DNA of 64,000 nucleotides from contig JARGXX010000073.1 of the NCBI GenBank assembly GCA_030374765.1, positions 734,776 through 798,775 on the forward strand. Reading direction: 5' to 3'. The notes beneath the pieces were generated by a model. It saw nothing but the letters and a program-made list of their open reading frames with translations, was not told where the DNA came from and searched no databases. Of the stretch, positions 4,241 to 64,000 are shown in pieces. Source of the stretch: Agarophyton chilense (taxonomy: Eukaryota > Rhodophyta > Florideophyceae > Gracilariales > Gracilariaceae). The position numbers and the translations under genes are program-made. How positions within the stretch are numbered: position 1 is the stretch's first letter; each line of letters begins with the position of its first letter.

Positions 4241-4917
4241 AATTTCAACCACGTCATGGACGTATTGCAACGCCCGCAAGCCGCGCCAAAAAAACCGGAC
4301 AAACAAGAGTGAGCGAAGTTGCGGCGAAGTAGGTGCGTGGAACGCCTTTCGCCGGACGGCAGAAGGCCGAAGACAACACCGAGGCACTCGGGAGATGGTT
4401 TGAAAGCCGCTCACGTTAGGAGCCGTGGGATGGGAATGGAACAATTGTTTCCATCGCGGTCGCGTGGCCGCAACAACAGCCTGCTCGCTGCCAGGAACGC
4501 ACAGCCACGCGCACCAAACAGCGTCAGAAAAAAAAGGCTGTTGGTTTGAAGTTGTGTGCTGGATGTCGTGGCATACGTGTGTCCCTGAGGCCGGAAAAGT
4601 CCATCATCCTCACCGAGCCGAAACCATGATGGTACGCTTCATCTGCCTTACAGAAGCATGGGTTCCGCAGCAGTTTTTCTCCGACCACACGCCGCGAACA
4701 AAGCAAAAAACCTCCATTAGCTCACACTACACGTCTACCAACACACGGACCCCCTACTAGAGTACACTTTGAGCTCCGAAATCTAGAGTATCGAGGTTGG
4801 AAGAGCATTCTACCACCCACACACCTGCAAGTCCCACGCGTTCCTTCACACTGGGGCACACACAGCTACAATCCAATTCCTCTCGCTTTCACATCTCAGA
4901 TCAGTGGTCTCTAGTAC
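4241..4917. other. intergenic, upstream of the channel gene
   Basis: 677 bases between two genes on the same (minus) strand. It should hold the promoter of the channel gene and the 3' end of the kinase gene. The part nearest the channel gene is an open extension of its reading frame up to 4444. I see no further gene or repeat. Confidence 0.5.
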
Positions 4918-44722: not shown

Positions 44723-44744
44723 TTCTCGGAATGCTAGATAAGTG
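44723..44744 (+). repeat. left terminal inverted repeat
   Basis: TTCTCGGAATGCTAG, then three unmatched bases and AGTG, paired with 63979-64000 in inverse orientation. It might extend a few bases to the left (TG at 44721-44722); the partner bases would be beyond 64000. Confidence 0.75.
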
Positions 44745-44968
44745 TGCTAGATAGCTAGTTTTGTAAATAAAAAGCCAAAAAATCTTAGAATTTTGCAGAT
44801 TGCGCTAGTTCGGCACCTGTAAAAAAATTTTTTGGAAATAAGAACTCCATTTATCTTAGTGTTTTGACCACTTAATACAGTTTAATCTGCATTTGCAGTT
44901 TACTGGTCACTTTTGACCGCTCTAGGTGGAGATCCATACCAAGGCAGTCGTCAGTACCTTCTACCTCA
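44745..44968. other. left subterminal region
   Basis: Contains GCTAGATAGCTAGTTTTG (44745-44762) and GCGCTAGTT (44802-44810), the same CTAGTT word that is repeated at the right end. TTTTGACCACT and TTTTGACCGCT also occur, the former also found near 63976. These are candidate transposase binding sites. Confidence 0.5.
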
Positions 44969-45469
44969 TTACTGGCCCTTTTGCTTACTAGGCTCCATCG
45001 TTCCACCAGGAGGGTATTTGAGGTTGAAGAAGTGCACCACCGCATTCTCAACCTCCTCCACCTCCCCACTGCTCAAGTTCCTCACACCCGGCTGCCCTAC
45101 CACACACACATTCCCACCCTTCTTCTCCACATCCTTACCAACCCTCCCCTTCTTCAGCCGACTCTCTCCAACTCCTCCCCCTTTCCATTCCTCTCTCCCC
45201 TTCTTGATCCCAGCCGGCTCCCCGCATCTCCCTGGCGTCACCGGCGACCCTTTCGCTCTCCCCCTCTCCTCTCCCACCTCCTTCAACACCTTCCCCCCAC
45301 CCCAAATCTCCCCCACCCCTTCCATGTGCACTTCCAACACCTTCACACGCCTCTTCAGTTCCTCATTCGCCCTCCACAGCTTCCCCATCTCCAGCCCCAT
45401 GGGGATCCGCTCGACATCTCCAACGCCCGCGAAGGCTATCGACAAGAGCCACCGCAAGCGCAAGCGCAC
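44969..45469 (-). CDS. hypothetical basic coiled-coil protein of the transposon
   Basis: 166 residues on the minus strand. A short coiled coil (LWRANEELKRRVKVLEVHME) is followed by a Gly/Lys/Glu-rich stretch and an acidic EVEEVENAVVHFF end. Composition resembles that of the 853-residue protein at 57488-60141. The plus strand across it is Pro/Ser-rich low complexity and not credible. An overlapping frame upstream (45620-45363) is also basic and might be a further exon. No domain recognised. Confidence 0.35.
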   Translation of the reverse strand: MRLRLRWLLSIAFAGVGDVERIPMGLEMGKLWRANEELKRRVKVLEVHMEGVGEIWGGGKVLKEVGEERGRAKGSPVTPGRCGEPAGIKKGREEWKGGGVGESRLKKGRVGKDVEKKGGNVCVVGQPGVRNLSSGEVEEVENAVVHFFNLKYPPGGTMEPSKQKGQ

Positions 45470-46011
45470 TCACCTTAGTGCGGCCAGTAGTACCCAAAGC
45501 CTCCCACACAGCACCCCCCCTTGAAAATCCTCTCGCCCACCTCCGGCCTTTTATCTCCTTTTTTTGACCAGCTTTTCGCGCGCGCTCGCCCAATTTCAGT
45601 ACCCTCGTACACCCCTGCATCTACGCTCCGGATGCCCTTCACCCCACTCATTGCTCACTCACACACTCCCATCCATATTCCTACACCTTCTATCATGTTC
45701 GGCGCTCCCTCACTACTCCCAATTTCATGGCCTTCTCATTTATAATAAATTACACTCATTCGTAACACAAACCGCCGATTACTCATAAGCCCTCTTTCCC
45801 GTTATGACTTCCATAACAACACACACTCCTACACTTTTAACACAATAAACACCATTCAATATCATAAATCTAACCTCCTTCCCAAAAACCCCTAACACTC
45901 ATTCCTCCACAACCATACTCCTTCTCTATTTAATCACATCTCCACACTCGCCAACCCCACCACTTCTTCAATTCCAAGCACACCGCACTCCAAACACCTT
46001 TCGCAATCAAC
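45470..46011. other. no supported gene
   Basis: About 540 bases. C+T-rich plus strand, then AC-rich sequence leading to the start of the next gene; probable promoter region. Confidence 0.4.
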
Positions 46012-46728
46012 ATGACCGACTCTCTCACTGCCATCCCTTGCACCTCCGACCCAGCCGTTATTGTCGGCAGAGGCCGAATCGGCACTTTGCTTCGCAACAA
46101 AGGCACCCCACAAGATGCTTTTCTCTCAACTCAAGAATTCATCTCCGCGCAATACATCCCCGACGGCCCCATTTTCTTCTGCGGCAGAAATCATTCACTC
46201 GAAGACGTCATTCAATTTTGCCCTTCCTCCCGCAGAGAGGATCTGGTCTTCCTTCAGAACGGAAACATTCTCCCTCTTCTTTCAACCTATGGGCTCCAAA
46301 ACTGCACTAAAGCCGTTCTCTTCCTCGCCGTCCCCTCCCTTAACGCACCCCCCGAGGACTGTGTCACCCTCCTCAGTCCCCATGGTCTCACAACTGCCAA
46401 CGGCAAATGGGCTCCCGCACTCGCCAATCGCCTCAGTACCGCAGGCCTCACTTGTCATGTCCTGGACCAGCCCTCCTTCTCTAAAGCTTACTACGAAAAA
46501 TTCGTATGGATATCAGCTTTTAATCTCGTCGGCTCCTCTTATGGCTTTATCACAATGCACGAAGTTGCAGTACAACAACGCACAGTCATTTCAACCATAA
46601 TGAAAGAGCTCCTCGCCATCGTCACATCCGAAACAGGAATCGCCTACAATACAACAGAAACACTCCAAAAACTTCTGGCCCACGGAAAAACACTTACACA
46701 GTTTCCCAATTCGTTCTCAGACTTTTAG
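46012..46728 (+). CDS. ketopantoate-reductase-like NAD(P)-binding protein
   Basis: 238 residues starting with ATG. The N terminus has a Rossmann nucleotide-binding loop, VIVGRGRIGTLL (G19, G21, G24), followed by IFFCGRNHSLEDVI and LVFLQNGNIL, where QNG matches the conserved QNG of ketopantoate reductases. The second half (YYEKFVWISAFNLVGSSYG, then RTVISTIMKELLAIVTSETG) fits the helical C-terminal domain of the ApbA/PanE family. Those enzymes reduce 2-dehydropantoate for coenzyme A synthesis, but family members act on other substrates and the usual catalytic lysine is not clear here. As transposon cargo its role is unknown. At 238 residues it is shorter than typical PanE (about 300). Confidence 0.55.
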   Translation: MTDSLTAIPCTSDPAVIVGRGRIGTLLRNKGTPQDAFLSTQEFISAQYIPDGPIFFCGRNHSLEDVIQFCPSSRREDLVFLQNGNILPLLSTYGLQNCTKAVLFLAVPSLNAPPEDCVTLLSPHGLTTANGKWAPALANRLSTAGLTCHVLDQPSFSKAYYEKFVWISAFNLVGSSYGFITMHEVAVQQRTVISTIMKELLAIVTSETGIAYNTTETLQKLLAHGKTLTQFPNSFSDF

Positions 46729-47251
46729 TTCCGGAACGTCTACTTCTACAACGTTTCTAACGCCCAAAAATCCATTGGAAACGGTGACCCCGCCCCTTTC
46801 CATACGAACTTCTTGAACGTCCTCCTCAATGGGTAGTACTTCATTCATATACCCCTTCCAATAAAAACAAGTCCTCCTTTCTAAAGCATATGTCCATCTC
46901 CTTCGCTGCCTCGATAAAGACTGCTATCCGCACGACACCAAGTCAGAATATATGAAACGATATTAAGAATTGCTTCGTACATCACAAATCATCACTACAA
47001 CCACTCTTCATAAATCTTCCAACTTTGCAATTAAGTCTGTATCCAATAACCGCTCCTACAGCCTATCAAAGGTTTTCATTCATAACAATTATTCATACTC
47101 TGCGACAGAGATACGGCAACAACCTAACAACTACTTTGATCACTACATATATATATCCACCGATGACCACCCTACTTCATTGCGCTCAACATACTGTATC
47201 CAGTCCCTCACAAATACCTTTCTACACAACACTCTCCTCTCCTTCTCAAGC
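46729..47251. other. no supported gene; upstream of small gene
   Basis: About 520 bases. The frame of the next gene is open from 46970, but the sequence is Ser/Thr/Tyr/Asn-rich and lacks protein character, so I take it as 5' noncoding. Confidence 0.4.
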
Positions 47252-47596
47252 ATGCAGCGCTACGAAGCACGTCTTTACCTACCCCCTGGTTCTTCTGTCC
47301 AATGCTCAGCAGCTGTGGATATTCTTCCACAACGAACGGTTATCACCGTCGACGAAGTCCTTCAAATCAAACTTCCAACCACCCAGAATGTGGTCGAAGT
47401 CAGAGGGTTCCAGAATCATATCACCAACGAGCTCATGGACGAGATTCGTGACATTTGTACGAGCACCAGGAGGCTCCCCACTCGCAACTCCCTACAGCAG
47501 CAAGATACTCTGAAACAACTGTTCAAAGAGCGGTATCATATCGTTACCCATGTGCAGCGTACAAGGAAGACTAGCAAACCGGAACGCCTTTACTAA
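47252..47596 (+). CDS. hypothetical 114-residue protein
   Basis: From the ATG at 47252: MQRYEARLYLPPGSSVQCSA, then VDEVLQIKLPTTQNVVEVRG, and a basic end. The first ~65 residues look like a small beta-rich fold; no family recognised. It follows the reductase-like gene on the same strand. Confidence 0.4.
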   Translation: MQRYEARLYLPPGSSVQCSAAVDILPQRTVITVDEVLQIKLPTTQNVVEVRGFQNHITNELMDEIRDICTSTRRLPTRNSLQQQDTLKQLFKERYHIVTHVQRTRKTSKPERLY

Positions 47597-47741
47597 GATG
47601 TTCAGTTAGCAAACACTCTTCACATCGACCTTAACGTTCACAATCACACTAACTACACTCTTCGGAGTTATAGATCCAGCTCTGCAATATACGCTTCCAT
47701 TCAGATTCAACTCTCTCCTTCGGTTCATTTTCATAACGCTA

Positions 47742-48437
47742 TTGAGGTGTCCTATCCAAAGCCTGCTACAAATTCTCATAATCGAAGGAGGCGTACAATG
47801 TATAAACGCGTTATACGGGTCTATACAAACTACGCCGTTCAATCCAAACCAGCGATATACCTGGAAGAAACGAGTCTTTCTGGAATTCGGGGCTCTACTC
47901 CTTACTCTACTCATCCCCCTCAACGCCATACTTTTCCTCGTTCACCGCTTCATTCCAGTCAGCGGTACCCTTTCATCAGACGTGAAGACAAATTGTATCG
48001 CCTTCTCCACAGGAGGGGCCGCAGTTGGCGCTTTGGCATATCTTCTCCAGCTTGTTTCTATATCCTTCTTTCCAGAGTCCTATCTTAACACAAAGTTGAC
48101 AAGGACCCCAGAACCACGGAGAACCTCTTTTATGAACCTCGTGCTTGGCGCCCTTTCCCACTCTTTTCAACAAGCTTTATTCATATCCAGTCCGGCTGTA
48201 ACCTTCCGACTACTCGGTATGAGGCTGTGGGCATGCACTTTCGCTGCCCTCTCTTCAACCGCCTTCTCCACCTCTCGCATTGAGTGCCCTGGTGTTCCTA
48301 TACTGCTTGGTAACACAGTGGATGTCGTAATCTTGATATCTTCGACAGTTGTCATTCACTATGAGAAAGTGAAAGCAAGTGCTGCTCTCACGCGTTTCAA
48401 TCCAGTTGTTCAGGAGTTTTTACTGAAAGAGGACTGA
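47742..48437 (+). CDS. putative membrane protein of the transposon
   Basis: An open frame of 231 codons with about four hydrophobic segments: FGALLLTLLIPLNAILFLVH, FSTGGAAVGALAYLLQLVSI, a weaker one around LGALSHSFQQALFI, and VPILLGNTVDVVILISSTVV. There is no ATG near its 5' end (the frame opens with TTG), so the true start is probably in an upstream exon or in another frame, for example via an ATG at 47798. No family recognised. Ends at a stop at 48435-48437, tail to tail with the dioxygenase-like gene. Confidence 0.45.
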   Translation: MRCPIQSLLQILIIEGGVQCINALYGSIQTTPFNPNQRYTWKKRVFLEFGALLLTLLIPLNAILFLVHRFIPVSGTLSSDVKTNCIAFSTGGAAVGALAYLLQLVSISFFPESYLNTKLTRTPEPRRTSFMNLVLGALSHSFQQALFISSPAVTFRLLGMRLWACTFAALSSTAFSTSRIECPGVPILLGNTVDVVILISSTVVIHYEKVKASAALTRFNPVVQEFLLKED

Positions 48438-48541
48438 TCACTATTACAAGAAAAGGGGACTACTCCACATATTACCTCAAATTGTACTCTTTATTGTTCA
48501 ATAGGTAACAGATACTATCTAGTCGTCGTCGTCATCCACTA

Positions 48542-50575
48542 TCATACCGCCGTCTTCATAGTCTCCATCTGTGTTAGCCGAGTTGAGACCCATCCCAGGT
48601 TCATCATCCTCTTCTTCATACTCCTCTTCCCCACTTTCAACAACTTCCATTTATAATCTTCATCCAACTCCTCATCCTCATCTACCTGGAAGTCTTCATC
48701 ATCACCCTTGTTGGAATCATCCTCTTCGAACTTAGGCCGAAATGCTGGTTGCCTATGCACTGCGTCCGGTAGCTTGTACCCATCCGGTACCAAGTACATG
48801 TGATACCTCATGCAAACTTCCTTAACCAATGCATCCTCGTATCCAGCTCCAGCATGAAACACATCTCCTCTTCCAATAAAAATGGAGTACGGCGGAATCC
48901 TGAACTTCCTCACTACCATCGTCCGAGATACGCGCTTCAAGCTCCTGTCGTCGGGCACGTACATGTTGTGTGACCTCTCACAAACCCAAAGCATAAACGA
49001 ACTCGCTCCCGACGCCATCATGAGGAACCCTGGAACCTCTCCGACGTTCTTCTCGGCATCGGTCAGTCCTCCAAAGTCCGTATGTAACACCTGCCTTGGA
49101 CAGCCCTCCGCCGTACACAGCACTCGCCCCCCTGTTTCAGGGGCATAAATCCTCTTCTTCCCCGACCGGTTGTTGCACAACCGAAGAGCGGCCGCAATCT
49201 GTCCAAACCTGGCATCCAACAATGCCCTTTTCCTCACCATTAAAACGTTGTTCTCGTCCCCCTCCACAGAATCCACAATCCCCACCTTCGTCGTAATGTA
49301 CCGCCCAACTCCCTCCATTCTATCTCCAGCATCTCTGTCCTCACCAGCGTTGATTATAGGGTCCCATTTCTTTCTATTCCCTTCAATCGCCAAGTCCGAC
49401 TGGTTCAAGAAATCCGTCTGGAAGAACTCTAGCAAAGTCCCAGTCACATCCCCATCGAAGTTTACCCCCCTCTTCTTCGCCTCATCCGCCATCCCCTCGT
49501 CCGTGGCAAACTCTTCCAGCACACAAAATCCTTTCTCCATCAGCTCACTTCTCTTAGTCGCGAAGTACTCGCGGGCCAAGTCATCCCTCTCCATTGCTGC
49601 CATCCATATCGCCTGCTCTTCATTCACAGAGTGGTCCTTCGTCGGCAGAATCACCCCAAAAACCGGTTCTTTCGTGGAACCCAGTTCCTTGTGCCTGTTA
49701 TGAGCAGCACGCCAATAAACCGCGTGGTGCACACTTTTCAAGTCTTCTACCGTCAAGCACTCCGCCCTGTGCTTGTTCCGTAGGTAAATCATCTGCATCC
49801 AGAGGTGCTGATGCTTCACTCCATTTTCACCCGCCGGCCACTCGCTCGGAAGTGCATTCACCAAGTACACCCACGACATACCCGACCCCCCCGCATACGG
49901 TCCCGCCCTCTTCAGCCCCTTCGGAACACCCTCCGGATTATTGTCTTCGAAGCCACGCATTTGCACACCTTCCTCCTCTTCGTCCCCTACAAATGCACCC
50001 TGCCCCCCGTCATCATCCAGTTCATCCTCACTCGATGAGAAAACATTGAGTACATGTTCCTTCAAGAAGCGCTTCAGCTCTTTCCTGCTCATCTTCTTGA
50101 ACACATCCACCACGTCAGCCGGTATTTGAGCCGCAGATGTGCCCACCGTCTTTCTCCTCTTTCTCTTCCGCTTTAAAGGCTGTTCATACTCGCGTTCATC
50201 ATCACTAATGACCACAGCCTTTCTTTTCCCCTTTCTCTGTCTAGGTTCCATCACCCTCTCACCCGCAGCATCCAGCCCGCGCTCAGAACCGTTTCTAGTT
50301 CGTGTGATGCGTCTGGGAACCACGGTTTCCTGGTGGGGTACAGACTCCCCAGCACTAGACGAAGGACCATTCACAGAAGGTGGCACCTCCACCACATCCT
50401 TCTCCGCACTTGGGGACGCCAGACTCACTTTCAGACCGCCTTCAATCCGCCTTTGTGCGATTTTCATCCTCTTCGACACCAACCCCGGCCACAACCGCTT
50501 CGGACCACTGAGCTCCATCGTCGCCGTTTGCATGCAAAGGTACTCCCTTAAAGACACCTCGTTCTTTCCCATCAC
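48542..50575 (-). CDS. probable 2-oxoglutarate/Fe(II)-dependent dioxygenase
   Basis: 677 residues. The first ~240 are basic and acidic low complexity, with repeated Lys/Arg clusters (KRKRKRRKT) typical of nuclear localisation. The rest is globular. Residues 495-600 show a jelly-roll iron site: H498-T-D500 (LHTDFGG), the distal H574 in GDVFHAGAG, and R590 (MRYHMYL) 16 residues later, the arrangement in which R binds 2-oxoglutarate. I infer an oxygenase of the broad superfamily that includes TET/JBP, AlkB and phytanoyl-CoA hydroxylases; I cannot assign it to TET/JBP. DNA or chromatin would be a plausible substrate given the nuclear-type tail and the methyltransferase in the same element. It overlaps the next gene by 134 bases in a different frame: either two genes or exons of one. 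Confidence 0.6.
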   Translation of the reverse strand: MMGKNEVSLREYLCMQTATMELSGPKRLWPGLVSKRMKIAQRRIEGGLKVSLASPSAEKDVVEVPPSVNGPSSSAGESVPHQETVVPRRITRTRNGSERGLDAAGERVMEPRQRKGKRKAVVISDDEREYEQPLKRKRKRRKTVGTSAAQIPADVVDVFKKMSRKELKRFLKEHVLNVFSSSEDELDDDGGQGAFVGDEEEEGVQMRGFEDNNPEGVPKGLKRAGPYAGGSGMSWVYLVNALPSEWPAGENGVKHQHLWMQMIYLRNKHRAECLTVEDLKSVHHAVYWRAAHNRHKELGSTKEPVFGVILPTKDHSVNEEQAIWMAAMERDDLAREYFATKRSELMEKGFCVLEEFATDEGMADEAKKRGVNFDGDVTGTLLEFFQTDFLNQSDLAIEGNRKKWDPIINAGEDRDAGDRMEGVGRYITTKVGIVDSVEGDENNVLMVRKRALLDARFGQIAAALRLCNNRSGKKRIYAPETGGRVLCTAEGCPRQVLHTDFGGLTDAEKNVGEVPGFLMMASGASSFMLWVCERSHNMYVPDDRSLKRVSRTMVVRKFRIPPYSIFIGRGDVFHAGAGYEDALVKEVCMRYHMYLVPDGYKLPDAVHRQPAFRPKFEEDDSNKGDDEDFQVDEDEELDEDYKWKLLKVGKRSMKKRMMNLGWVSTRLTQMETMKTAV

Positions 50576-52205
50576 AATTGTACTGTCTAGAACCTTCCCC
50601 GCCGTCAGACCCTTCTCCTTTCCCGCCCTTTTTGCATAGTTGGAACATTCGTATGGCGCATTGGAAGAATTCCTTTCGCGTCTCCTGGAAACGTCCCATA
50701 TTCCCCGTAGAACCCATCCTCACCCTCACATGTAGCTGCAAACAACGGATTGCGAAACGGAATATTTCGTCTTCGAGTCCTAACAACAAGTCACTCGACA
50801 CATGCGCAAGGGTTAGCACTGAACTCTCCTTGCATACGTTCTCAAAGAACTCCAGGAGACCTTCGCTCCTGACGAATTTCAACCCAAGAGTCGCATAGCG
50901 ATTCAAGTGGCGCAAGCTGTAGATTCCTATAGCTTCGCTCGTCTTCAGCTCCCCAGCTATCCGTGTCGGAGTAAGGTCAGCCAACTTGGTTCTCTTATCG
51001 TCAATCAAGTTGCAAATGAAGGACACTGTCGAATGAACCTTGTCGGCGAAACTAATCTTCAACACATTTGAACTCATTTCATTGAGTACATTACCAAGAA
51101 CGAGCACTTCGTTCAGCGATAAAGGCTTCCGGTCCTTTCGTCTCCAACGAACGACATCACAAAACCGCACAATTTCCAACCACTTTCTCCCTTCAGAGGG
51201 ATCATTCTTCAGATCTCGCAGAACCAAGACGTGGTGATGACCGTCCATGAGTATGACAGGCACCACTACCCTCCCATTGTGAACAATTTCACTGAAATCT
51301 AATTCCATTCCCCCGACGATGGCAACAGCAATCGACCCTGCCGACGCAAGCCAGCCAAACGTTTTGCACTTTGCCATCGTCGCCGCCTTGTGTTCCGCAT
51401 TCACACTTCTCACAGTCTTCTCGGGGATTTGTATGTCATCTATGTCCACAATCAAGCGGCACTGGTCATAGTCTGAAGCAGAGATCTTCTTTTCCACGAG
51501 AGTCCTATCCACTTCCTGCGAAGGAACGGCATCGCCGTCATCGAACAACTCCAACTCGGGACCGGTGTGCGAATCCCCGCGTACATTCACCGCTGACCCC
51601 ACCTCCACAACATCTTCATCAGAATCATCCACTATCGTCACCCTCTTTTTCGGCTTGACGGGTTGCTTCATGACCGGCGGCCCTGTTGTTGGCTGTGCCC
51701 TCTTCCCCCTCAAAGGCGTAGCAGACTCCTTCGAGGGGGTCGCGCTTTTGGGAGTCTCCGGCCGAGGAGGCCCTGGAGTCAGCACAGAGGAGACACGTGT
51801 CATCATCGAGGTATCCCATGCGTATATACCTGCCGACACCATATCCTTCAGCAACTCCGGCGGCTCCTCTGCTCCCTTGAAGGAGTACGGATACTTGGAG
51901 TTGATCCCCTCCTTAATTTCAGTCCTCCAGATGGCCACCAATTCCTCTCCCGGCTTCGCAGACTCGCGCAACGAATGGCCATGCATCGCTCTGCAAAGCG
52001 CCTTCCCGGCCGCTCCACTGCCCCCAACACCTCTCAACTCCGCAGTGCCAACCATTGTACCCTTCTTCTTCCCTGTCTCATCCGCCAGGAACAACGCCAC
52101 CCTGTCCCCACCAGCCAGATTGTTTCCCGATGTAGCTTTTCGCGGAGTGGCGCGTGGAGTACCCCGCGGAGTACCCCTGGCTTTCGCTTTGCCTCGAGTC
52201 ATCAT
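50442..52205 (-). CDS. nuclear protein with possible ParB-like domain
   Basis: 587 residues. N terminus is basic with RGTPRGTPRATPRK repeats, followed by an acidic linker (VDDSDEDVVEVG). About residues 248-330 resemble the ParB/Srx fold: VDIDDIQIPEKTVRS at the start, a helical segment, then VVVPVILMDGHHHVLVL, where DGHHH recalls the D-G-x-H-R motif of ParB N-terminal domains. The R is replaced by H, so the match is suggestive only. The C-terminal ~200 residues are helical and unrecognised. ParB domains bind and slide on DNA from palindromic sites and use CTP; the large palindrome array lies 290 bases upstream of this start. The start ATG pair is at 52205. Confidence 0.5.
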   Translation of the reverse strand: MMTRGKAKARGTPRGTPRATPRKATSGNNLAGGDRVALFLADETGKKKGTMVGTAELRGVGGSGAAGKALCRAMHGHSLRESAKPGEELVAIWRTEIKEGINSKYPYSFKGAEEPPELLKDMVSAGIYAWDTSMMTRVSSVLTPGPPRPETPKSATPSKESATPLRGKRAQPTTGPPVMKQPVKPKKRVTIVDDSDEDVVEVGSAVNVRGDSHTGPELELFDDGDAVPSQEVDRTLVEKKISASDYDQCRLIVDIDDIQIPEKTVRSVNAEHKAATMAKCKTFGWLASAGSIAVAIVGGMELDFSEIVHNGRVVVPVILMDGHHHVLVLRDLKNDPSEGRKWLEIVRFCDVVRWRRKDRKPLSLNEVLVLGNVLNEMSSNVLKISFADKVHSTVSFICNLIDDKRTKLADLTPTRIAGELKTSEAIGIYSLRHLNRYATLGLKFVRSEGLLEFFENVCKESSVLTLAHVSSDLLLGLEDEIFRFAIRCLQLHVRVRMGSTGNMGRFQETRKEFFQCAIRMFQLCKKGGKGEGSDGGEGSRQYNCDGKERGVFKGVPLHANGDDGAQWSEAVVAGVGVEEDENRTKAD

Positions 52206-52495
52206 TTGAATCGGATCGTAGTCGGTCGAGGTTGCAAATGGTCACAGAGCGCTTTGAGCCTTTTATGGTATACAGACTAAGACGTATTAGATCGAGCTCC
52301 TTTGGTGGCGACTATCCGGAACACTCCCGAGAGCAGTTCGTTGCAATCAGCCTGAACTACGTCCGCTTAGTTTCAACCTGAGCTAAGTCCGCTTAGTTTC
52401 AAACTCAAGAAACTCCTTGTCTCTTTCCATCACAAACACGCCTATTGGCTTGGTAGGCGATACAAGAAAATAAAATTAAAAAATTAAAAATATCC
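52206..52495. other. probable promoter region between gene block and array
   Basis: 290 bases upstream of the minus-strand genes. GACTACGTCCGCTTAGTTTC-like words are repeated (TCCGCTTAGTTTCAA at about 52361 and 52389). AT-rich run just before the array. Confidence 0.4.
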
Positions 52496-53806: not shown

Positions 53807-53979
53807 GAATGCAACCAGGATAGCTGCGAAGTCGTTCCGCAACAACCGTTCTTCCGTGCGCGCTCCTCAACCGTACGCACAATTTTTCCGTACCCAGCCG
53901 CACCCAGCCGCACCCGCTGCTCTCTTTTACTCAGGCTCTCGTGACGACCGCCCGTGAGGTTGTTTGAACATGTACATAA

Positions 53980-56900
53980 ATGGCTCCAGAACCCACGAGA
54001 ACTTCTTCATCGCCTGCGGCAGACACCTTCGAAATGGGTAAACTGTTTGGTACGGGGGATGAACTTATCAGGGCGTGTCTGGATTTGCGTGATCGTTACG
54101 CATTAACGAGGCGGGAGGAAGATGAGCCGCGAAAAGTGGGGCACACTGTATTCATCGATTTCGCAATTGCCAATCACCACATCCTACCGGAGACCGCGAA
54201 GTTTTTTTATACTCTCCTAGGTCCCGACCACACCAATTACACAGAAGATGAGCTCCGAGTTGTAGGAAGGAGGGGCTCGAACTGTCAGAATTATTTCTCG
54301 GCGAGGTTGCTGGATATAAGGGATGGGGACCCAGATAGGCGCGTGAGGGACTTTTGGAACGCGTACGAGGCGGTGGAGTTCAAGGGCATCCCGAAGAATG
54401 TCACTTTGACAGAGTTCTTCAAAGGTCTGGATACAACCCGAAAGATGGCGAGCAAAAGCCGGGCTCCATTCGCGACCGACTTCCCGACAATGTTCCACAG
54501 GTTTCTGTTCCTCATTTGTATTCAGTCGGTCTCTATGGAGAAGAGAAGAGTCTCCCGTAAGTGAAGAAAGCGGTACAGAACCTACGATACGCCATTTTCG
54601 AAGGTGGCGATTTATGACAAACCAGTAGCTCAGCGTGTGGGCTTTGGTGTGCAGCTCGTCAATAACGCGTGGGACAGCTTCTCCCAGTATTTGGGATTCC
54701 CTGGCGTGGAATTCATGGTTTTGCCCTTTATCCATCTACGATATTCTGATATGCAGTTCCAGGCAATCGGAAACAGAAGGGATGGGTTCTCTCACAAGGA
54801 CATGGCCCAACGACTCCTTCCTGGTAGAAACCGTACTTTATTGGAGGAGGATGTCGTCCCATGGGCGTGGAACCTGCCGGAGTACGTTGACACTCCACTT
54901 CGTATGTTGGCCAAAGAGTTTCTCGCTGACCTGCACAAAGTGGTGGTGAATGAGCAGCTTTACTCTATATCAGCTCCGGAAAGATGGGACGTTCTAAAAC
55001 CGTTTACATACACTTTGCCTAGAGTGTTTGCGGAGAGATTCGACTGCTTCTCGAACTCTCTTATCTCTACCATCTCGGAATACATATCGCCACTAAAGCT
55101 GCGAGGGAGTGTGGAGGTGGAAGTGGTGGCTGCGACAAAGGCGGAACCTACTATGGTTATGGAAGAAGACGAGATAGAAGTTGTACCCCCTGAGAAAGAT
55201 TCGGAGGCTCCGGCGGTGGAGGGTGGAGAGGGAGTAGAGGGTGGGACCGGGAATGAGGAAGAGAACATGGGTGTTGGTCAGCATTCTTCCACAGCTGGAC
55301 CAAGGTCGGTCGAATCTGAGTCGGTGGATATTCTGCCGCCTCACGACCTTACCTCTCTGGATGATATAATGTCTCTCCAAAAGTGCGAGTCGGAGATGGA
55401 TAAGCACTGTCGAATGTACAATTGTACTTTCGAGAACCTGGTGGAGATTGACGAGACATTGCGCAGCAATGGGGTCTCTCCGATAGGGAAAGTGCAGTTG
55501 GTTCTCACGGACCCGCCGTATAATATACGTGCGAAGAAGAACAGGAAAAACAGCTGGTACGACGTTCTTAACCGGCAAGACATGGTGAAGACGGCGAAGC
55601 TCATCTCTAAACTTCTGCGTCCGAGAGGGCATTTCGTTATATTCTGCGCGATTGAGCAGGTGAACGAATGGAAAGAAGTGTTGGGTCGAATTGGTGCAAA
55701 AGATGAGAATGGACAGAAGAGCAGGTCGTTTGTCGTGGACAAGGTCCAGCTGCACTTCATTCGCTCTCAAGGCAATCCGATGCGTAATCCCGGACGTAGT
55801 TCGTGCTCCCTGTTTCCCGGAACAGAGTACGCCATTCATGGAGTTCGCAGCGGGTTGTCCTACGCCGAACAACATGGCATGGTGAACTATGAGAACTTCA
55901 GCTATGTACCATCGCGATATCCGGGTTACCATAGCGTGATTGACCAAGTGCCTCCCATGTCGAATGGTGAAACACTTCTATGGAGAAGGAAGAATGCCAA
56001 AGGAGCAGTTACGTATCAGAAAGTGCGGGCGGAACAGAAGTCACGCGCTTTGCTGAAGGAGCTCATCAGCAGGTTTTCTCAGCCGGGAGACATAGTGGTG
56101 GACCTCTTCGCCGGAACATTTTCAACGGCCATGGCATGCATGGAACTGGAAAAGCACCGTCAGTTTCTAGGGTGTGAGCCAGATCCGCAGTGCTTTGCTC
56201 ATGCGAAGCACGCCGCTACAGTGAAATTTGCGTCATGCATGCGGAACAACGAGACGGACATTCATATAACGCAAGATGTTCGGAACGCTGTGACTCGAGT
56301 GACATGCTTGTTTCCGGACGTCGTCATAAAGCGTTCGAAGTCCTGGAAAACACCTACCGGATTTCCCGAGCATCAGATGTTTCCACCCCATATCGTGGAT
56401 TTTCTCTCCTCCATGTGGCAGGATAAGAATATATCGGAGATTGGGCGACGGCAGGCGCTGTATGAGTGGCCAAGAAGTTTTCAAGGAAAGATGTCACTGT
56501 TGGATTGGAATGCTATTCTGGCAGTGGAGGCGACAGTATGTGGTTGTCAGATTGCAAATGCTGGAGTTGGTGTGTACACAACACGCCGGGTGATACAAGG
56601 TGAGACTGTTTGTTACTTTTACGGGACTTTGGTGTACCATGATCTTTCAAAGCGGAAGGAAGTTCATAAGGCATACGGAGGGGGGCTATTGAAAGCGACT
56701 GCTGATCGTTTTCGGCAGTACGCGATGGAGATAAGCGTCCGAGGGGAAGTGTTTCACAAGCTACCAGGAAGAATTAGTGGGGTGTCTCTTATTCCGGTGT
56801 GGATTGTCCCTGCTCCATTTTGCTTGGGGGGAACAATTAACGACCCCAAGTATGTGGAAGGGGATAGGGACAGGGATGCGGTTGAAGACGGGTTAATGAG

Positions 56901-57090
56901 ACGCCGAACTGCAAATGTTCGGGTCATCAGAACTCCGGGGACGGGGCGGACCCCATTTCAGTTGAGAGACTATAGATTGCTTTCTGTGCAAGCAATTCGA
57001 GATATAGAAATAGGAGAGGAGCTGTTCGCGGATTATGGGACAGAGTATATCTGGAGTATGAATAACACGCCAGTCATAGTAATCGATTAA
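53980..57090 (+). CDS. DNA amino-methyltransferase fused to SET domain
   Basis: Two open parts (53980-54564 and 54604-57090) join if an intron at 54501-54578 (GT...AG, 78 bases) is removed, giving 1,010 residues. Residues 1-330 are unrecognised; about 350-440 is an acidic linker. The methyltransferase follows: VQLVLTDPPYNIRA (motif IV, D485-P-P-Y), then DIVVDLFAGTFSTAMAC (motif I, D682) and GCEPDPQCF. Motif IV before motif I is the beta-class order; DPPY usually marks N6-adenine methylation, N4-cytosine being the alternative. From about 825 to the end is a SET domain: GVGVYTTRRVIQGETVC, GGTINDPKYV in place of the usual NHSC, and IRDIEIGEELFADYGTEYIW. SET domains methylate lysine, usually on histones. 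Asp in place of the NHSC histidine/cysteine may alter activity. Likely nuclear. Confidence 0.85.
54501..54578 (+). other. proposed intron in the methyltransferase-SET gene
   Basis: Starts GTTTCTG after CCACAG and ends GGTACAG. Removing it joins two open frames in phase through an Arg codon. A stronger-looking donor (GTAAGT at 54557) is present but gives no in-phase join with nearby AGs. Confidence 0.5.
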
Positions 57091-57487
57091 AAGTGCATCG
57101 CTTTTGTTACTTTACTTCATTGTAGTGTACCAGATATTGTGGGCTTTTACTATGTTTGTCGCTACATATAACGTCAAAGCGTGACGTAGTACATATGCTA
57201 AAGGAAAGTCTGTTTTTTCCTCTTCGCCGGATGTTTCTTTTGTTGTTTCGCCCCTTTTCTGGTTCTCGGGTCCGGTGCCTGTACACCGAAGGAGAATACT
57301 TTCCCAATATCTGGTGCGTTCGAGCGCATATTTAAAATATCTGAAAAGTTTCAAAGCGGGGTTTTCTGAGAACACGAAAAGGGTGGAGGTATATTTTTGG
57401 AAGCAGAATGTTTCGAAGCTTCTCTCCCATCCATCGCATTGCAACGCGTGGAAGACCATACCACGATCGCTCTCTCTCTCTTCAACC
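57091..57487. other. intergenic, includes shared 50-bp segment
   Basis: Between two plus-strand genes. 57233-57282 matches 8993-9042 in inverse orientation with one mismatch. The remainder should hold the promoter of the next gene. Open frames crossing it on the minus strand are read-through of low-complexity sequence. Confidence 0.5.
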
Positions 57488-60141
57488 ATGGCTCCGAAGC
57501 GCAAATCGAGAAGCGAGAACACTAGCGGGCGCGGTACAAAATCACGGCGGCATGGAGGGGATGCGGAGGGCGGAAGGGACAAGGGGCGTAGGCTCCAGGG
57601 CGCGAGTGGAGAGAAGGGAGGCGTGCGCCTGAGAGGTAGATCAAGGCAAGATGGTGGGGAAGGAGAGGCGAGTGGGGGCAAAGGAAAGGCTGTTCGCGCA
57701 AAGGAGACGGTGACGGAGGAGAGTGCGGAGCAAATCACGTCGCGTACGGAGCAAATCACGTCGCCTACGGGAGAGATGGTGCGGAGCGGCGATGGAAAAC
57801 GGGATGGCGTGCGAAGCAACCGCACGCGTGTACCTAGAAGTGGATTGCGGGGGAGGGCGAGCAGAGCTCCAGGGAGGACAAGGAGAGGGGATGCATCCGA
57901 GCGGACTCTAAGTGCTGTACTCACGTCTTCAGCTGATGTGGAGCCGGTAAATCCATGCTCTGCACCTGAAGGAGGTGAAGAGATTCCGAATGAGAGGACG
58001 AAGGGGCGTAAGGAGGGAGAGAGAATGATCGGAGAACGTGGATCCCGCCTCAGAGGCGTTGAAGAAGCAGGGGCATCGTTTACGGGTATGAGGGAAGAGG
58101 ACGGTGATGATGAGATACAGAAAGGGAGAATAGAGAGTAGCCGTGGTGGGGAGGGTAGAATAGGTGGACCCAGTAGTGGTCTAATCGCGGGCGCAAGAGT
58201 CGTTCGAGAGAGAACAGAAGGAGAGAGTGTTGGAGTTACCGCGGGGGAACAGGCGGAAAGATGGGAGGGGGCGAACTTGGATTACGTGGAAGAAAGGAGA
58301 GAGCGTGCAAGGGAAAGAATGGGGAGTGTTCGAGTTACAGGAAGAAGAGCGATAGACGAAAGGGAAAGCAGAGAAGTGCATGTGAGTGAGGGGGGAGAAG
58401 GGGGTTTGCTGGAGGGAGAACACGTGGTTCAGGGGAGGAAGGCGATGGAAGAGCAGCAGTTCTTTCTCATCAGGGAGAAGATGTCGAGCGTTTGCCACCG
58501 AGGAGAGGGGTGGGTTTGGGAGTTGAAGGGTTTGAGGTGAACGCAAGGCGAAGGACGCCGGAAGGTATGCGAGTAAGGAGAAACATTGTATTCACAAGGA
58601 ATAATGATAACGGGGAGAATGCGAATTTAAATGTCGTGGAGAACGCCGTCCGTATAGTGGAAGATGAAGCAAATGATGATGACATAGGTTTGTTGCCGCG
58701 GTCGATGCTAATTGAGAAGATGAATGTGTTGAAGGGACAAATGGGACGTATGAAGGAAGACAGCTACAGTGTGATGGTGAGTTTGAAAATGACCCAAACG
58801 GAGCTGGATCGGGCGAGGGAGGAAATGAAGCAGCAGAATGTGCTGATTGAGAGTTTGAGGGAGGCGTTGAAAGGTAGAATCGCTGGGGAAGGGAGGGGGG
58901 AGGGAGGCGTGACGCGGCGACGAAAGTATGACATTGGAGTGCAGGAATGCTTTTATGGATTTGCACGTCGTGTGTATGATAGGATTCTTCATTATGCAAA
59001 ACTGGAGGCATCGGAACTTTGCTTCGACACCGAGAATGTGGGTCGAAGCTGGAAGAATAGAAGTGAGGCGGTTGGGGAGAGTAGGGAGGAAAGTATGTTT
59101 GTGGTGGGAGAGAAGGAAATGGTTCCGAGATGTCCAATTGAGGTTGCATATGAGATGAGACCGTATACGCCGTCGACAGAGGGCGGGAGCCATTTGTTGT
59201 TGAAGCACGTGGTAGAGACTGAGTTAATGGGAGAGAAATGGGAGTCGATAAGGGAAGCGGGGAGGAGAGAGGAGTGCGTGGAAAATGTAAGTGCGGATAG
59301 GTGCTTGAGACAGAGGATGAAGCAGACATTGAGCGATGTGGTTGGGGTGCGGAAGCGAGCAGCGCGTGATAAGCTGTTTTCCATGCTTGGATATGATTTG
59401 ATCGCGAAACGAGCTAAGGTGACTGAAGGGACGGAGCTTTGGGCGGAGTTGAAGAAGCAGATTGAGGAGGCGCAGGAGAAGTTGATGGGGTCGGGGGAGG
59501 ATGGGAGAGGTAAGCTGTGTGCGTGGAGAACGAGTGCGATTGAAGATATTACTTATTCTGGATCGAAGGTGTCTGAGAACTTGGAGGACTTTGGTGAGGC
59601 AGATATGTATTTTCGAAATCAGGTGTCGTTGAAAGTGTTGGAGGAGTTTATGGGCTACGCGGTAGAGAGTCACAGAAATGGAGAAAGGCAGTATGTGGAT
59701 GGGACGGTGATGCATCTTGCGCGACTTGATGCATGGATTGGATGTGTGGTGACCACGATGTATAGAGACGTTGGGCGGGGAGGCCAAAGGCAACTTTTGT
59801 TCTCGACGCTGTTTGGGAGGTTTCTGCCACTGGCTGTTGAGGACATATTGAGGGTTGCCTGGAACATGGTGAAGGATGAGTATGCTGAGGAGTTTGAGAA
59901 TGATGGATTCTGTGGAGGGAATCGTAGAGATGTGAGTGGGAATAAGGAGAGAATCGCGACGGTTGGGCTATGGATACCGTCGAGAGAGAAAATCTATCTG
60001 GCGATAAGGGAGGAGTTTTTCATGGAGAATCTCACGAGAAGACTTGGAGCGGTGTTAGATTGCTATATAGCGTCATGTGGACCAGAAGAACCACGGTTCA
60101 AGCGCTTAGCGTTGGGGAGTAGGCAAGGAGTGGGAGAGTGA
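57488..60141 (+). CDS. 853-residue basic coiled-coil protein, one intron
   Basis: ATG at 57488 (MAPKRKSRSENTSGRGTKSR). Exon 1 runs to 58381; an intron of 92 bases, 58382-58473, has a GTGAGT donor and a TTCTTTCTCATCAG acceptor; exon 2 runs in phase to 60141. Residues 1-298 are Arg/Gly/Glu-rich and disordered, with clusters like RGTKSRRH that suggest nuclear, nucleic-acid binding. Residues ~370-434 form a coiled coil (LDRAREEMKQQNVLIESL). The remaining ~420 residues are globular and helical, with LEEFMGYAVESH and LRVAWNMVKDEYAEE. No family recognised. It lies between the methyltransferase gene and the transposase, convergent with the latter at 110 bases. Possibly an accessory protein for transposition. 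Confidence 0.6.
58382..58473 (+). other. intron in the 853-residue protein gene
   Basis: GTGAGT donor directly after codon 298 and a pyrimidine-rich TTCTTTCTCATCAG acceptor. Both flanking frames are open and join in phase 0, while reading through gives a stop at 58538-58540. Confidence 0.75.
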
Positions 60142-60250
60142 TAAGGTACGGGGGGATAAGGGGGTAAGGAGGTGCAGCAAGATGGGGGTCGGCTATGGAA
60201 AAAAAGCAGCGGTGCCTATTTCATTGGATCATGTGCCTTGGGAGGTATTA

Positions 60251-63200
60251 TTATGGGTGCCACCCAGTGGTGGTGTTGTGCCACCAGTGGTGGTGTTGGA
60301 GAAGTAGGGCTTGGCAGTTGGGTCTCGGTAGAATCTGTTGAGGTAAAATCGATGGAAGCGCCAGTGCAATCGAGGGGTGAAGGGGGGTGCGGGGTAGTTT
60401 TGGCGAAGTACATGAACGGGGCCGAGAATGGAAGAGGATGGTACGAGGCCAAACCAGGGAGAGACGTTGTCGGAGTTGGAAGTGTTTGAGATAGGAAGGG
60501 GGTGGGCGGTGTGGTTTTGTTTCGTCGTCTGTTGCCCATCGGAGGCAGATGCAATTGAGAGAGACATCGACTTGATCCTGGGGTGGAACGAGTTCGAGGA
60601 ACTGAACGAAGGTGAACTCGTTATGAGTGGAAGGGGAAGAAGGGGTGGTGAAGCGAAGAAGAGAGTTGAGCTTGCAGACCCAGGCGGTGGGAGTGGGGTT
60701 GGAGAAGCTGGAACCGGCAACGAGGATGTGGGAGAACTTTGGGGTTTTAGAGGGACTGAAGGAGGGAGCAGCGAGGATACGTTGAATGAGTGGGAGAGGG
60801 GGATCTTTGACGGCGAGCTCGTTTCGATGGGCGATGTAGTCGTCTAGGGTTGGGGTGAAGCCGCCGACGACGTATGCGGAATTGACGAATGTGAGACGGG
60901 TTTGGCGGAGAGTGGGGGAGTCCTGGTTGAGAGCTAGTGTTTCGAGTGTGAGTGTGACGAAGGAGGGGAGTGCGAGGGTTCCAATCTGTGAGATGATGGC
61001 GATAGTGTCTGGGGAGAATAGGTCCTGAAGGGAAGAGATTGTTGAGTGGGGGTTTGCTCGAAGGAATTTGTGAGCGGTGATGAGATCGGAAAAGGAGGTG
61101 TGCTTGCCATCACGGACGAAACCTGGTTTGCGGGCTTGGAAGGGAGGAGGAGGGGCATAGGAGGATGAGGTGACGGAAGGATCAGCGGAGAGAGAAATCC
61201 AATTGTTGACGGCATCGGAGCGTTTGATGGCACGGATGGTTTCGTTGTGCGCGGTGGGTCTGCGCTTGGAGGTTCGGGAGTAATGTGCTTTGAAGAGGGT
61301 ATGGGCTTGTTCGAAGATGCCTGCATCGTTGAAGTGGAGACCCCCAAAGCGTCGAATGTCGTCTACGATGTGATCGAGGAGGTGGAATTTGAGGGTGCCA
61401 AGGTTAGAGGTATGGTATGGACCGAGAACATCGACAGCTCTGTGCTTGAAGGAATGGATTTGGGAGGCGAGTTTGGCAAGACGAGAAGTGGTCCATTCGG
61501 GGACGGAGTTGTAGCACATGGAGGTGAGGAGGAGGTCTGTGTACTTGGAGAAGACGGTTGTGATGGGAGCGGAATTGGCTTCGTCACAGCAGCGGTCGAA
61601 GAAGGCGCCGATGAAGGGGAAGACCATGTAGAGGGCGCGGTAGTCTTTTGCTTCTAGCATGCCGCGGACGCCGTCAGTTGTGAAGAAGCCGTTGAGGGAC
61701 TGCCCGCTTTCGGAAGTAGAGAAGTCGATGTGGAGGCCGGTAGCTGGGGAATGGTTTTCGATGGCGGTGAGGATGAAGTTGGACTGCTTGAGGATGGAGG
61801 TGCGGACGGAGTGGAAGGAACGGCGGGAGTTTGTGGAGCTGATGGTGGTGAAGAGGTGTTCTGATTTGAGACGTTCGATGGCGGCGAGCTTGATGAGTTT
61901 GGAAACGCCGAGGTGGAAGTTGTGGAGGGGTTCGAAGGGGAAGATGTTGTATGGGGTGAGGAGGGGGGTGATGTTGAAAAGGGGGTAAGACTCGAAGAGG
62001 GAGGGGTATTTAGCGAGGGAGAGGGAGTGGAGTGCTTGGAGAGCTTGTTCCTTGAAGTTGCGCGAGACTCTTGGCTTGCGGGCGAGGAGAGCTGCTTCGG
62101 AGTCCTTGAGGAGGGAGAAGTGTTTGTTGCGAGCTGCAAGGGTGAGGGGAAGAGATCGAGGGGGATGGGCGTGAGAGTGTTGGTGGAGTTGTGAGCGAGG
62201 GACAGAGCATCTGTGGCAAGGGTGCTGGGGCGGGTGCCGTGGGAGATGGCGAGAATATCCTTTGCCTCGGGAATGTCTGCGCAGTAGCTGGCGATGATGG
62301 GGTGGCATTGACGAAGAACGCCGTCTGCGTCGCGGAAGGGGAAACCGGGGAGGGCGGAAGAAAAGAGAGGTTGAAGGAGGGAGGAGATGGTCTGCTGTAT
62401 GAGTTCCATTTTTGTTTGGCGGGGGATGGAGGAGGAATGAGTGATGATATCTGCATCTGGAGAAGGAGTGATTGGGGTGAAGGAGGTGGGAAGATAGCCG
62501 AGGAGTGTGAGATTGTCGGAGATGCATTTGCGGCGAAAGGAGTCGGAGAAGTTGAGAAGGGTGATGTGGAGGGGGTAGGAGGTGATGGAAGAAGATTTGA
62601 AAGAGGTAGAGGACTTGTCGGAGTAGATTTGGACGAGGCCGATGAAGGAGTCGATACCGGTGGAGTGAGGAAGATGCCAGACGATGTTATCTTTTGTGGA
62701 CTGCATGATGGCGGTCTTGAGTGCGGGGATGACTTTTGAGCCAAGGGTGGCTGCCATGGGGTGTGCGAAGGCGGGAGAGCCGGAGGCGGATGTTTGGGAG
62801 ATGGGGTGGAAAAAGGTGTTCTTGAAGTGTGCGAGGGCGAGCTGTTGTATGAGGACATGGATTGCGTCTTTCTGGAAGAGGGTTGCGGAGAAGCGTTTGT
62901 GGGGATCGAAGATGGTGGAGGGGGCGAAACCAATGGACCTGATTCTCTGGTGGAAGAGGTCTGCCTGGAGCTCGAGGCATTGCTTTGCGGAGGAGACTGA
63001 GTTCCGGAATGTTGATTCGGAGAAGTGGGGATCATTAAGGAGAGTGATGAGTTCGTCAGCCTTTCGTTGTCCAAGCTTGGAGGCGATGGAGGAGATGTAG
63101 AGGACCATTTTCTCCAGGTGGGGGTTGTCGAGGGGGGGACTGGAAGGAGGGAGGGAGGAGAGAGCGAGAGAGGAGGGGGAACCGAGAGGGGCAGTGGCGA

Positions 63201-63492
63201 CGTGGATGGCGTCCTGGGTGTGGAGGGAGAGAGAGAGCTGGTCTTGGAGGTAGGAGTCATGGTGTGCGAGAGGGACGTTGTCAGAAGGGCGATGTGAGGG
63301 AGGAGGATGAGGGGGGAGTTGTGAGGTGGACTTGTGGCGTTTTGCGCGGGGGGGGAAGTTGGGTTCATTTCGGCCAGGGGAGAGGAAGCGCTTGTTGACG
63401 GAGAGGCGATGAGGGCACCTTCTCTGGTGCCGCTGGAGGGCGGGGATTTCTCGGGCGAAGAAGGAGCAACCGTTGAAGCAGCAGGAAGGCAT
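60251..63492 (-). CDS. Plavaka-like DDE transposase
   Basis: Encoded in two overlapping minus-strand frames (63615-61654 and 62527-60251), with protein-like sequence passing from the first to the second near 62150. I start it at the ATG at 63492 (MPSCCFNGCSFFAREIPALQ), because a C2H2-type finger begins there. Core signatures follow: LVQIYSDKSSTSF, with the likely first catalytic D, then SYPLHITLLNF, FRRKCIS and LGYLPTSF, matching the conserved YSDKT...YPVY...N...RRK...GYLP block of Plavaka transposases. Next come DADGVLRQCHPIIASYCADI, equivalent to the CADG...VYPI...ADxPE block, then FPFEPLHNFHLGVSKLIK, and FNDAGIFEQAHTLFKAHY with a candidate third acidic residue. The join near 62150 could be an intron ending ...CCCTTGCAG, or a true or assembly frameshift. 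Cut-and-paste enzyme acting on the element's ends in the nucleus. Confidence 0.85.
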
Positions 63493-63615
63493 GGTGGGTG
63501 GAGGAGAGGTGGTGGGAAAGAAGTTGGTAGGGGAGCGTAGACGGAGAGAGAGTATGGTGCACACAGGGCACGTGACAGGGGAGGGCGGTGGAGAATAATA
63601 TAGAATGCAAGGCAC

Positions 63616-63978
63616 GTGAGGTCTGCCAGGTCGGGCTGCGATTCTATTGCGATTGATATGGATGGTACTAAATGTTCAATTTCTATTTTGAGGTCCAGTT
63701 TGGGACCGGTTGTTTGTACTAATCTGTCAATCTAGAGCGCACAAAGATTGAATCTGCTCCTGCACCACTTCTCTACTTTTACCTTTAAACTGCGGTGACA
63801 GAAAGATTCACGCTAGTTTTACCTCCATCAAAACTAGAAAAACTGCAGATATGTGCTAGTTTTCCTTCCCATACAAACTAGCACTAATGAACGAATGAGA
63901 ATATTTTCGGAAATTAACACCTCCAAATTTGGATAAATTCACGGGTTTTTCGATCATTTCAATTCGTCCTTTTTTGAC
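63616..63978. other. right subterminal region
   Basis: Contains CGCTAGTTTT (63811-63820), AAAACTAG (63830-63837), GTGCTAGTTT (63853-63862) and its inverse AAACTAGCAC (63875-63884), the last two forming a 10-bp hairpin. Same CTAGTT word as the left end. The upstream region of the transposase gene is also here. Confidence 0.55.
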
Positions 63979-64000
63979 CACTGAACTAGCATTCCGAGAA
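63979..64000 (-). repeat. right terminal inverted repeat (at window edge)
   Basis: CTAGCATTCCGAGAA at the extreme right is the inverse of 44723-44737. The repeat may continue past the window. Confidence 0.75.

Follow-up and report, generated by a model that had tools for sequence, protein, structure and literature searches.

Giant repeats of up to 50 kb that contain Plavaka transposases together with tyrosine recombinases have been described in Amoebidium (PMC11244446). Plavaka elements bearing TET/JBP genes are known from Agaricales, and two subgroups of the Agaricomycetes Plavaka, PlavakaA and PlavakaB, are distinguished by their termini (Kojima 2025, PMC12730594). Other transposons bearing SET or TET genes include HarbingerS and MuDR of Phytophthora, and Kyakuja, Dileera, Zisupton and others (PMC12730594). 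Plavaka is also mentioned, without cargo in the passages concerned, in PMC8290104, PMC11075540 and PMC9674265. The locus considered here belongs to the red alga Agarophyton chilense and lies in a stretch of 64,000 bp (G000:C73:734776-798775, hereafter the window), which runs up to the end of a contig of 798,775 bases in a genome of 79.8 Mb and 135 contigs. The part of the window from 44.7 kb to the contig end is probably one copy of a recently active giant Plavaka (CACTA-related) transposon, with the cargo and the strand-composition gradient read as proposed below. Sequence comparison identifies the family as such: its ends and a 2-bp target duplication are defined, insertion is precise, the transposase is encoded, the cargo recurs, and smaller deletion derivatives have the same ends.

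The element resembles the Amoebidium giant repeats in being giant and gene-rich, with intron-poor genes and a Plavaka transposase; the latter have many tyrosine recombinases (PMC11244446), whereas no such family was found here among the open reading frames (ORFs) scanned against Pfam. The section on the Amoebidium repeats gives neither ends, target duplication nor skew (PMC11244446). With the Agaricomycetes Plavaka the element has in common a PF18759 transposase and a 2-bp duplication, and some of those elements carry a TET/JBP dioxygenase gene; compared with them, as described in the sections concerned, it adds a methyltransferase-SET gene and others (PMC12730594). Of the characters given for the Plavaka clade, the PF18759 transposase and a target duplication of 2 or 3 bp (here 2 bp) were found. 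The dioxygenase-like part is joined here to a ParB-like part and has HxD, whereas the PE hallmark is HxE (PMC12730594). The SET- and TET-bearing transposons are alike in that chromatin- or DNA-modification enzymes were captured by a transposon, but their transposases are others, and a fused DNA methyltransferase-SET protein is not mentioned in the passages on them (PMC12730594). Neither a skewed DNA transposon nor a methyltransferase-SET transposon was found among the literature matches listed. The first-pass annotation of this DNA had proposed a new transposon class; since giant Plavaka repeats (PMC11244446) and TET/JBP-bearing Plavaka (PMC12730594) are already published, the element is a further Plavaka type and not a new class, though one with a striking strand gradient.

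The 15-bp inverted repeat reported at 44723 and at the window end in the first-pass annotation is present: TTCTCGGAATGCTAG starts at 44723, and its complement finishes at 64000. Genome-wide, this 15-mer occurs at 103 sites on each strand, its reversed control at 0. Ten loci having two 15-mer repeats each, 15.9-18.9 kb long, were fetched as sister copies, and in all ten the common ends extend 8 bp further outward than the 15-mer. The left end is therefore placed at 44715. By the same comparison the right end of the window copy would lie 8 bp past 64000, off the contig, where CACTGACG is expected, and the copy would measure 19,294 bp if its right end is as in the sisters. Both ends read CGTC(T/A)GTGTTCTCGGAATGCTAG; in the sister copies the left ends start CGTCTGTG, and the right ends read CGTCAGTG. 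Such common ends speak for the borders originally drawn, which ends differing between copies were to have called into question.

A 29-mer specific to the left end has 70 genome sites and a 23-mer specific to the right end 84 (reversed controls 0 for both). A facing right end within 45 kb was found for 50 left ends, with 49 distinct right ends (one used twice); the remaining 20 are without a partner among the matched ends, exact patterns overlooking mutated ones. Nineteen end pairs in strict left-right orientation are 17.6-19.3 kb apart, and two pairs at 38-40 kb likely represent nesting or mispairing. On each genomic side, 28 of 30 ends have CGTC/GACG as their four outermost bases, and in the other four of 60 one base is changed. 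The copy L090/L091 (G000:C2:1067377-1080405) has another element end for its right flank, indicating adjacent or nested copies.

Flanks were examined for 30 end pairs, i.e., the 10 fetched sister copies and 20 more. Of these, 27 have a target duplication of 2 bp, as compared to 5.0 of 30 with shuffled partners, and the duplicated dinucleotide is most frequently TA (8), followed by AT (5). Uninterrupted relatives of the insertion site were found for nine of the 30 copies, having the flanks joined minus one duplication, at 78-97% identity and with zero gaps across the 29 printed columns at each junction. This count is a lower bound, because the search covered already fetched DNA only. A tenth match (L090) aligned to element ends and was discarded. 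None of the nine empty sites has CGTC after the dinucleotide, and CGTC is therefore part of the element; in L058 a chance CGTC stands just before the junction.

For the window copy, the 120 bp of left flank next to the junction match a gypsy gag family of high copy number (40 scored of 373 candidates), whose 39 members besides the window are 86-91% identical to the left flank. Two gag relatives were followed past the junction point: the frame is open in L092, while L093 has a stop and a frameshift. The gypsy gag interruption proposed for the left end is seen in the sequence. The two copies L015/L016 and L021/L022 occupy the same position in nearly identical flanks (98% over 492 bp and 100% over 443 bp), which points either to two insertions into a repeated target or to duplication of a segment.

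The complete cargo in identical order is carried by seven of the ten fetched copies, in line with the recurrence of both ends and gene order that the first-pass annotation had named as a check. Of the other three, L031 is without part of ORF F, L033 without ORF B and some surroundings, and L017 without most of the cargo. The 18.7-kb locus L017/L018 looks full-size by its ends, yet the copy has suffered a deletion and is filled by a gypsy element, whose pol frame is open over 1,684 codons.

The same ends also occur on compact copies of about 3-8 kb, and these are what would favor a chance composite, in which a small Plavaka transposon stands beside unrelated neighbor genes without forming a single mobile unit. 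The compact copies examined, however, have common breakpoints within the full element, like deletion derivatives. One internal breakpoint is common to L011, L012, L042, L043, L044 and L045, and another to L010, L042, L043, L044 and L047; the compact or deleted copies L010-L012, L042-L045 and L047 retain one end and a transposase fragment (e.g., G000:C1:1548340-1553174). Together with the 19 oriented full-size end pairs and the whole cargo kept in order in most fetched copies, this makes a composite extremely improbable, and at the level of sequence it is refuted by the common ends, cargo and duplications. The repeated breakpoints suggest an amplified deletion derivative. Palindromes are present within several compact end pairs, and the compact copies presumably move in trans.

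Frame counts and the copy alignment were made with nine sister copies, L017 being omitted because it is a deletion derivative with gypsy inside; the alignment for identity thus comprised ten copies, including that of the window. Pairwise identity is 97.1-99.0%, and the spread is therefore recent. Over six genes, changes found in a single copy are near neutral (855 replacement, 330 silent), whereas those common to at least two copies are replacement-depleted (70 to 44; Fisher p 0.017). The substitution pattern fits a recent burst from a lineage that would have been under weak purifying selection. The common ends, 2-bp duplication, copy identity and empty sites together uphold the original assignment to a giant, recently mobile Plavaka-type transposon.

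The sister copies give about seven main ORFs, long ED, F, G and H and short A, B and C (Table 1), instead of the ten or so genes counted at first. That these frames are largely intact, as had been stated, is true of the family; the window copy has breaks in ED, F, G and H when compared with the sisters. ORF H contains PF18759 (E 3.9e-18 in the window; 1.9e-22 and 80.4 bits in a sister copy, cut-off 26.3), which confirms the Plavaka-like transposase. In the genome, 123 PF18759 matches were scored of 235 candidates, as compared to none in 14 control genomes, and ten PF18759 loci that were cut out all belong to the element family, with 94.8-99.2% identity over the best-scoring stretch. In P0022, CQRC and neighboring histidines are seen by eye.

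ORF F encodes a predicted methyltransferase-SET protein with two domains over cut-off, PF01555 (3.4e-18) and PF00856 (8.2e-5). It is open at 1,036-1,043 codons in seven of eight loci, the window copy being the eighth, and has 1,043 codons in four of the nine sister copies. A 69-bp intron was considered and dropped, as the sister copies read through intron-free. Nineteen homologues were obtained among 7,995 scored candidates, the best having 49% identity over 99% of the query; according to a precomputed domain listing, nine of them have both domains and the other ten the methyltransferase only. The methyltransferase-SET family occurs in public assemblies (P0001-P0019), 23-50% identical to F.

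A model of F from 20 sequences (mean pLDDT 80) matches CcrM, M1.HpyAVI and, lower, the bdelloid N4 enzyme, and the model of its SET domain matches SET proteins of viruses. Adenine-N6 activity is predicted as more likely than cytosine-N4, because motif IV is DPPY and adenine enzymes top the structural list. The bdelloid N4-cytosine methyltransferase is likewise a bacterial-type amino-methyltransferase in a eukaryote, with a fold similar to F (8s9m-8s9o), but in the sections concerned it is described in connection with 4mC as a eukaryotic mark and not as a transposon gene (PMC8885841). It also differs in that F has adenine-N6 enzymes as its best structural matches and DPPY as its motif.

ORF ED has a frame of at least 1,100 codons in three of nine sister copies. 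Judged by eye from motifs, its first half is ParB/sulfiredoxin-like, and an HxD...H pattern as in 2OG-Fe(II) (TET/JBP-like) dioxygenases occurs in its last part; both likenesses are leads. One homologue was found, metagenome P0020, which aligns to 79% of the D part at 36% identity and has both parts in a single chain. Among the remaining frames, ORF A has frameshifting indels or stops in six of nine sister copies, and its status as a gene is therefore uncertain. ORF B gave PF08546 at E 0.084, under cut-off, and a similar faint NCBIfam signal (E 0.07). ORF C is indel-free in nine of nine sister copies and stop-free in six of nine. ORF G has only sub-threshold matches to coiled-coil families.

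One alternative is an integrated DNA virus or virus-like replicon that has borrowed a Plavaka transposase as integrase, similar to Teratorn. The giant size, long frames, centre-symmetric skew and palindromic array recall replicating genomes, and giant viruses have DNA methyltransferases and SET proteins whose folds are similar. On the other hand, capsid, polymerase, primase, ATPase and protease families were not over cut-off among the ORFs scanned, and a scan of viral contigs with F gave seven weak matches, with local identities of 22-46% and in the methyltransferase region only. A viral origin is accordingly very unlikely. Polinton/adintovirus or Teratorn-like elements carry DNA polymerase and capsid genes, and Starship captains are DUF3435 tyrosine recombinases; neither the polymerase and capsid nor DUF3435 gave a Pfam hit among the ORFs scanned.

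Table 1. Features of the element and of the rest of the window (positions in the window).
Feature	Position	Strand	Basis or remark
Whole element, window copy	44715..64000	.	ends from sister copies
Left copy of 2-bp target duplication (TA)	44713..44714	.	beside sister-defined end; right copy off contig
Left terminal inverted repeat CGTCTGTGTTCTCGGAATGCTAG	44715..44737	+	sister-copy comparison
Right terminal inverted repeat	63986..64000	-	sister-copy comparison; contig end removes outer 8 bp (CGTCAGTG in sister copies)
ORF A, 166 codons, no Pfam hit	44972..45469	-	open in window
ORF B, 238 codons	46012..46725	+	below-cut-off likeness to ketopantoate reductase C-terminus
Doubtful short frame, 209 codons, no Pfam hit	46967-47593	+	intact in 5/9 sister copies; excluded from gene count
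ORF C, 275 codons, hydrophobic, membrane-like by eye	47610..48434	+	sub-threshold family matches only
ORF ED, interrupted in window copy	48545..52241	-	single 1,247-codon frame in sister L019/L020
Central array, ~64/128-bp repeats in both orientations, on perfect palindrome TGTCGGCCGACA	52350..53830	.	15 exact in window copy
ORF F, beta-class N6/N4 DNA methyltransferase fused to SET (predicted)	53980..57087	+	1,043 codons in sisters; in-frame stop in window
ORF G, split in window copy	57275..60138	+	923-930 codons, one frame, in 4/9 sister copies
ORF H, Plavaka transposase, interrupted in window copy	60254..63675	-	1,103-1,155 codons, one frame, in 4/9 sister copies
RSN1/calcium-dependent-channel-like membrane protein, host-type gene or piece	971-4441	-	window
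Protein kinase, host-type gene or piece	4918-6534	-	window
Mitochondrial carrier, host-type gene or piece	21198-21752	+	window

The first-pass annotation, which rightly saw one giant transposon here, had overlooked the palindromic array and a gradient in strand composition. From one end of the element to the other, GC skew rises in a nearly straight line, starting at about -0.6 on the left and reaching +0.6 close to the right end, whichever strand the genes occupy, and genes on both strands are present in each half. Fits with 500-bp bins, 200 bp being omitted at each end, give an end-to-end change of about 1.3 and a linear R2 of 0.91-0.94 in 10 of 11 elements (0.94 for the window copy); the exception is L017 (R2 0.27), the deleted copy with gypsy inside. 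In the other 44.7 kb of the window, 53 sliding 18.5-kb windows taken as control have changes of -0.29 to 0.17 and R2 of at most 0.55. Four-fold sites were counted on the + strand for seven ORFs, taken from L015, L019 and the window: G 127/C 412 was obtained for the left four ORFs and G 786/C 136 for the right three, with A/T nearly balanced (226/181 left, 338/300 right). On the coding strand of the transposase these sites are G 12/C 429, and in the gypsy pol frame of L017 G 268/C 293.

Transcription or codon selection, in place of replication or strand exposure, could in principle have produced the skew, since a divergent promoter at the centre, with transcripts running outward, would give each half the same sign, and close to the centre the skew between genes is weak or reversed (F-G +0.07, array-to-F -0.25). 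However, the gaps A-B (-0.61), C-D (-0.21) and G-H (+0.58) follow the gradient too, as do codon position 1 in six of seven genes and position 2 in five of seven. At four-fold sites the outward genes A, ED, F and G are richer in G, whereas the inward B, C and H are richer in C (C weakly, 44 to 28). The trend is also near-linear, with R2 of 0.93-0.94 as compared to 0.78-0.82 for a central step in all eight copies tested. Transcription or codon selection is thus regarded as an unlikely source of the skew.

The position of the array offers another possibility, bidirectional replication from a central origin of bacterial type. Skew passes zero at about 45% of element length, in or near the palindromic array, and, as in bacteria, leading strands rich in G would result. 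With a fixed origin, though, a step is expected and not a gradient that grows towards the ends, and the linear model is better in each of the eight copies; replication proteins were not found among the ORFs scanned. Such an origin ranks below the gradient models and is less likely still than the transcriptional alternative.

The palindrome TGTCGGCCGACA has 487 exact sites genome-wide as compared to 5 for its reversed control. Among the first 50 sites listed, nearly all are in or beside elements of the family, as judged by eye, with C3:196686-196867 unassigned. The full-size copies examined have 0 to 15 exact palindromes each.

In the reading preferred here, that of a giant Plavaka transposon, the DDE transposase would cut and paste the element, and some copies would be autonomous. 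The cargo may constitute a kit for epigenetic self-management: protein F would methylate DNA and histones, and protein ED would use its ParB-like part to bind DNA, possibly the palindromic array, and would oxidise bases methylated in host silencing. Less certain is the proposal that the linear skew records repeated single-strand exposure, rising towards the ends, over the history of the element. Two forms of exposure can be envisaged. In the first, 5' resection of excised ends would be accompanied by C-to-G change on the exposed strand; in the second, strand displacement or gap repair from both ends would be accompanied by G-to-C change on the exposed strand. Both fit the sign and the gradient of the skew alike. 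A fuller scheme is put forward tentatively, with odds clearly against it: a strand-asymmetric copying cycle, in which every move would leave single strands that are longest at the ends and so yield a linear, nearly pure G/C gradient, might be combined with a ParB-dioxygenase that binds a parS-like array where the skew turns, marking the element as self and stripping host methylation, with the methyltransferase-SET protein opposing or complementing it.

Several observations weigh against this interpretation. The terminal bases match neither Plavaka subgroup as defined in the published account: PlavakaA has 5'-TGT..ACA-3', while the ends here are CGTC..GACG with TGT internal, and the 5'-CATCA..TGATG-3' of PlavakaB was not found (PMC12730594). 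The CMCT clade has 5'-CA..TG-3', which is usual and not universal, as compared to CG..CG here (PMC12730594). Three of the 30 copies are without a matching duplication, not one fetched copy was demonstrated to have all frames open, and the full-size copy L029 has zero exact palindromes. For ED, neither Pfam nor NCBIfam gave a family over cut-off, the PDB gave no sequence match, and a wider protein search with an ED alignment (both sequences) returned nothing at E <= 0.001. With three sequences as input, fold prediction did not succeed for its dioxygenase part, the mean pLDDT being 29.6. Of the TET/JBP character of TET-bearing Plavaka, an HTD..H pattern is seen by eye, with no Pfam or PDB match and an unusable model.

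As regards the skew, the outermost 200 bp or so oppose the gradient (+0.17 left, -0.16 right in L015), and the AT skew is small, which is not what simple cytosine deamination would give. In the ten-copy alignment, present-day C and G per-base change rates are close in three of four parts (in the leftmost part, C>T is at 0.075 and G>A at 0.077). From the array to 57.2 kb, G mutates faster (G>A 0.074 vs. C>T 0.055; G>T 0.045 vs. C>A 0.023), and G outpacing C there would erode the skew. As the bias is not seen in present-day changes, the process would act in the mobile lineage and not in resident copies, or would lie in the past. Cytosine deamination in TpC context was considered and set aside, because the C-poor strand shows no depletion of TpC (observed/expected 1.09), the AT skew is small and present-day changes are unfavorable. 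The asymmetry is somewhat larger at TCA (log2 2.03) than at ACA (1.31), and trinucleotide contexts show no clear deaminase signature.

Outside the element, the window includes host-type genes or pieces of genes (Table 1), so the statement that all nearby elements are decayed is wrong if meant for the whole window.

With this family, the ends, target duplication and insertion sites of a giant Plavaka element with cargo are defined, and a predicted DNA-plus-histone methylation enzyme is seen to be carried by a transposon. The near-linear skew may preserve, like a fossil, the way in which a DNA transposon of a eukaryote is copied.

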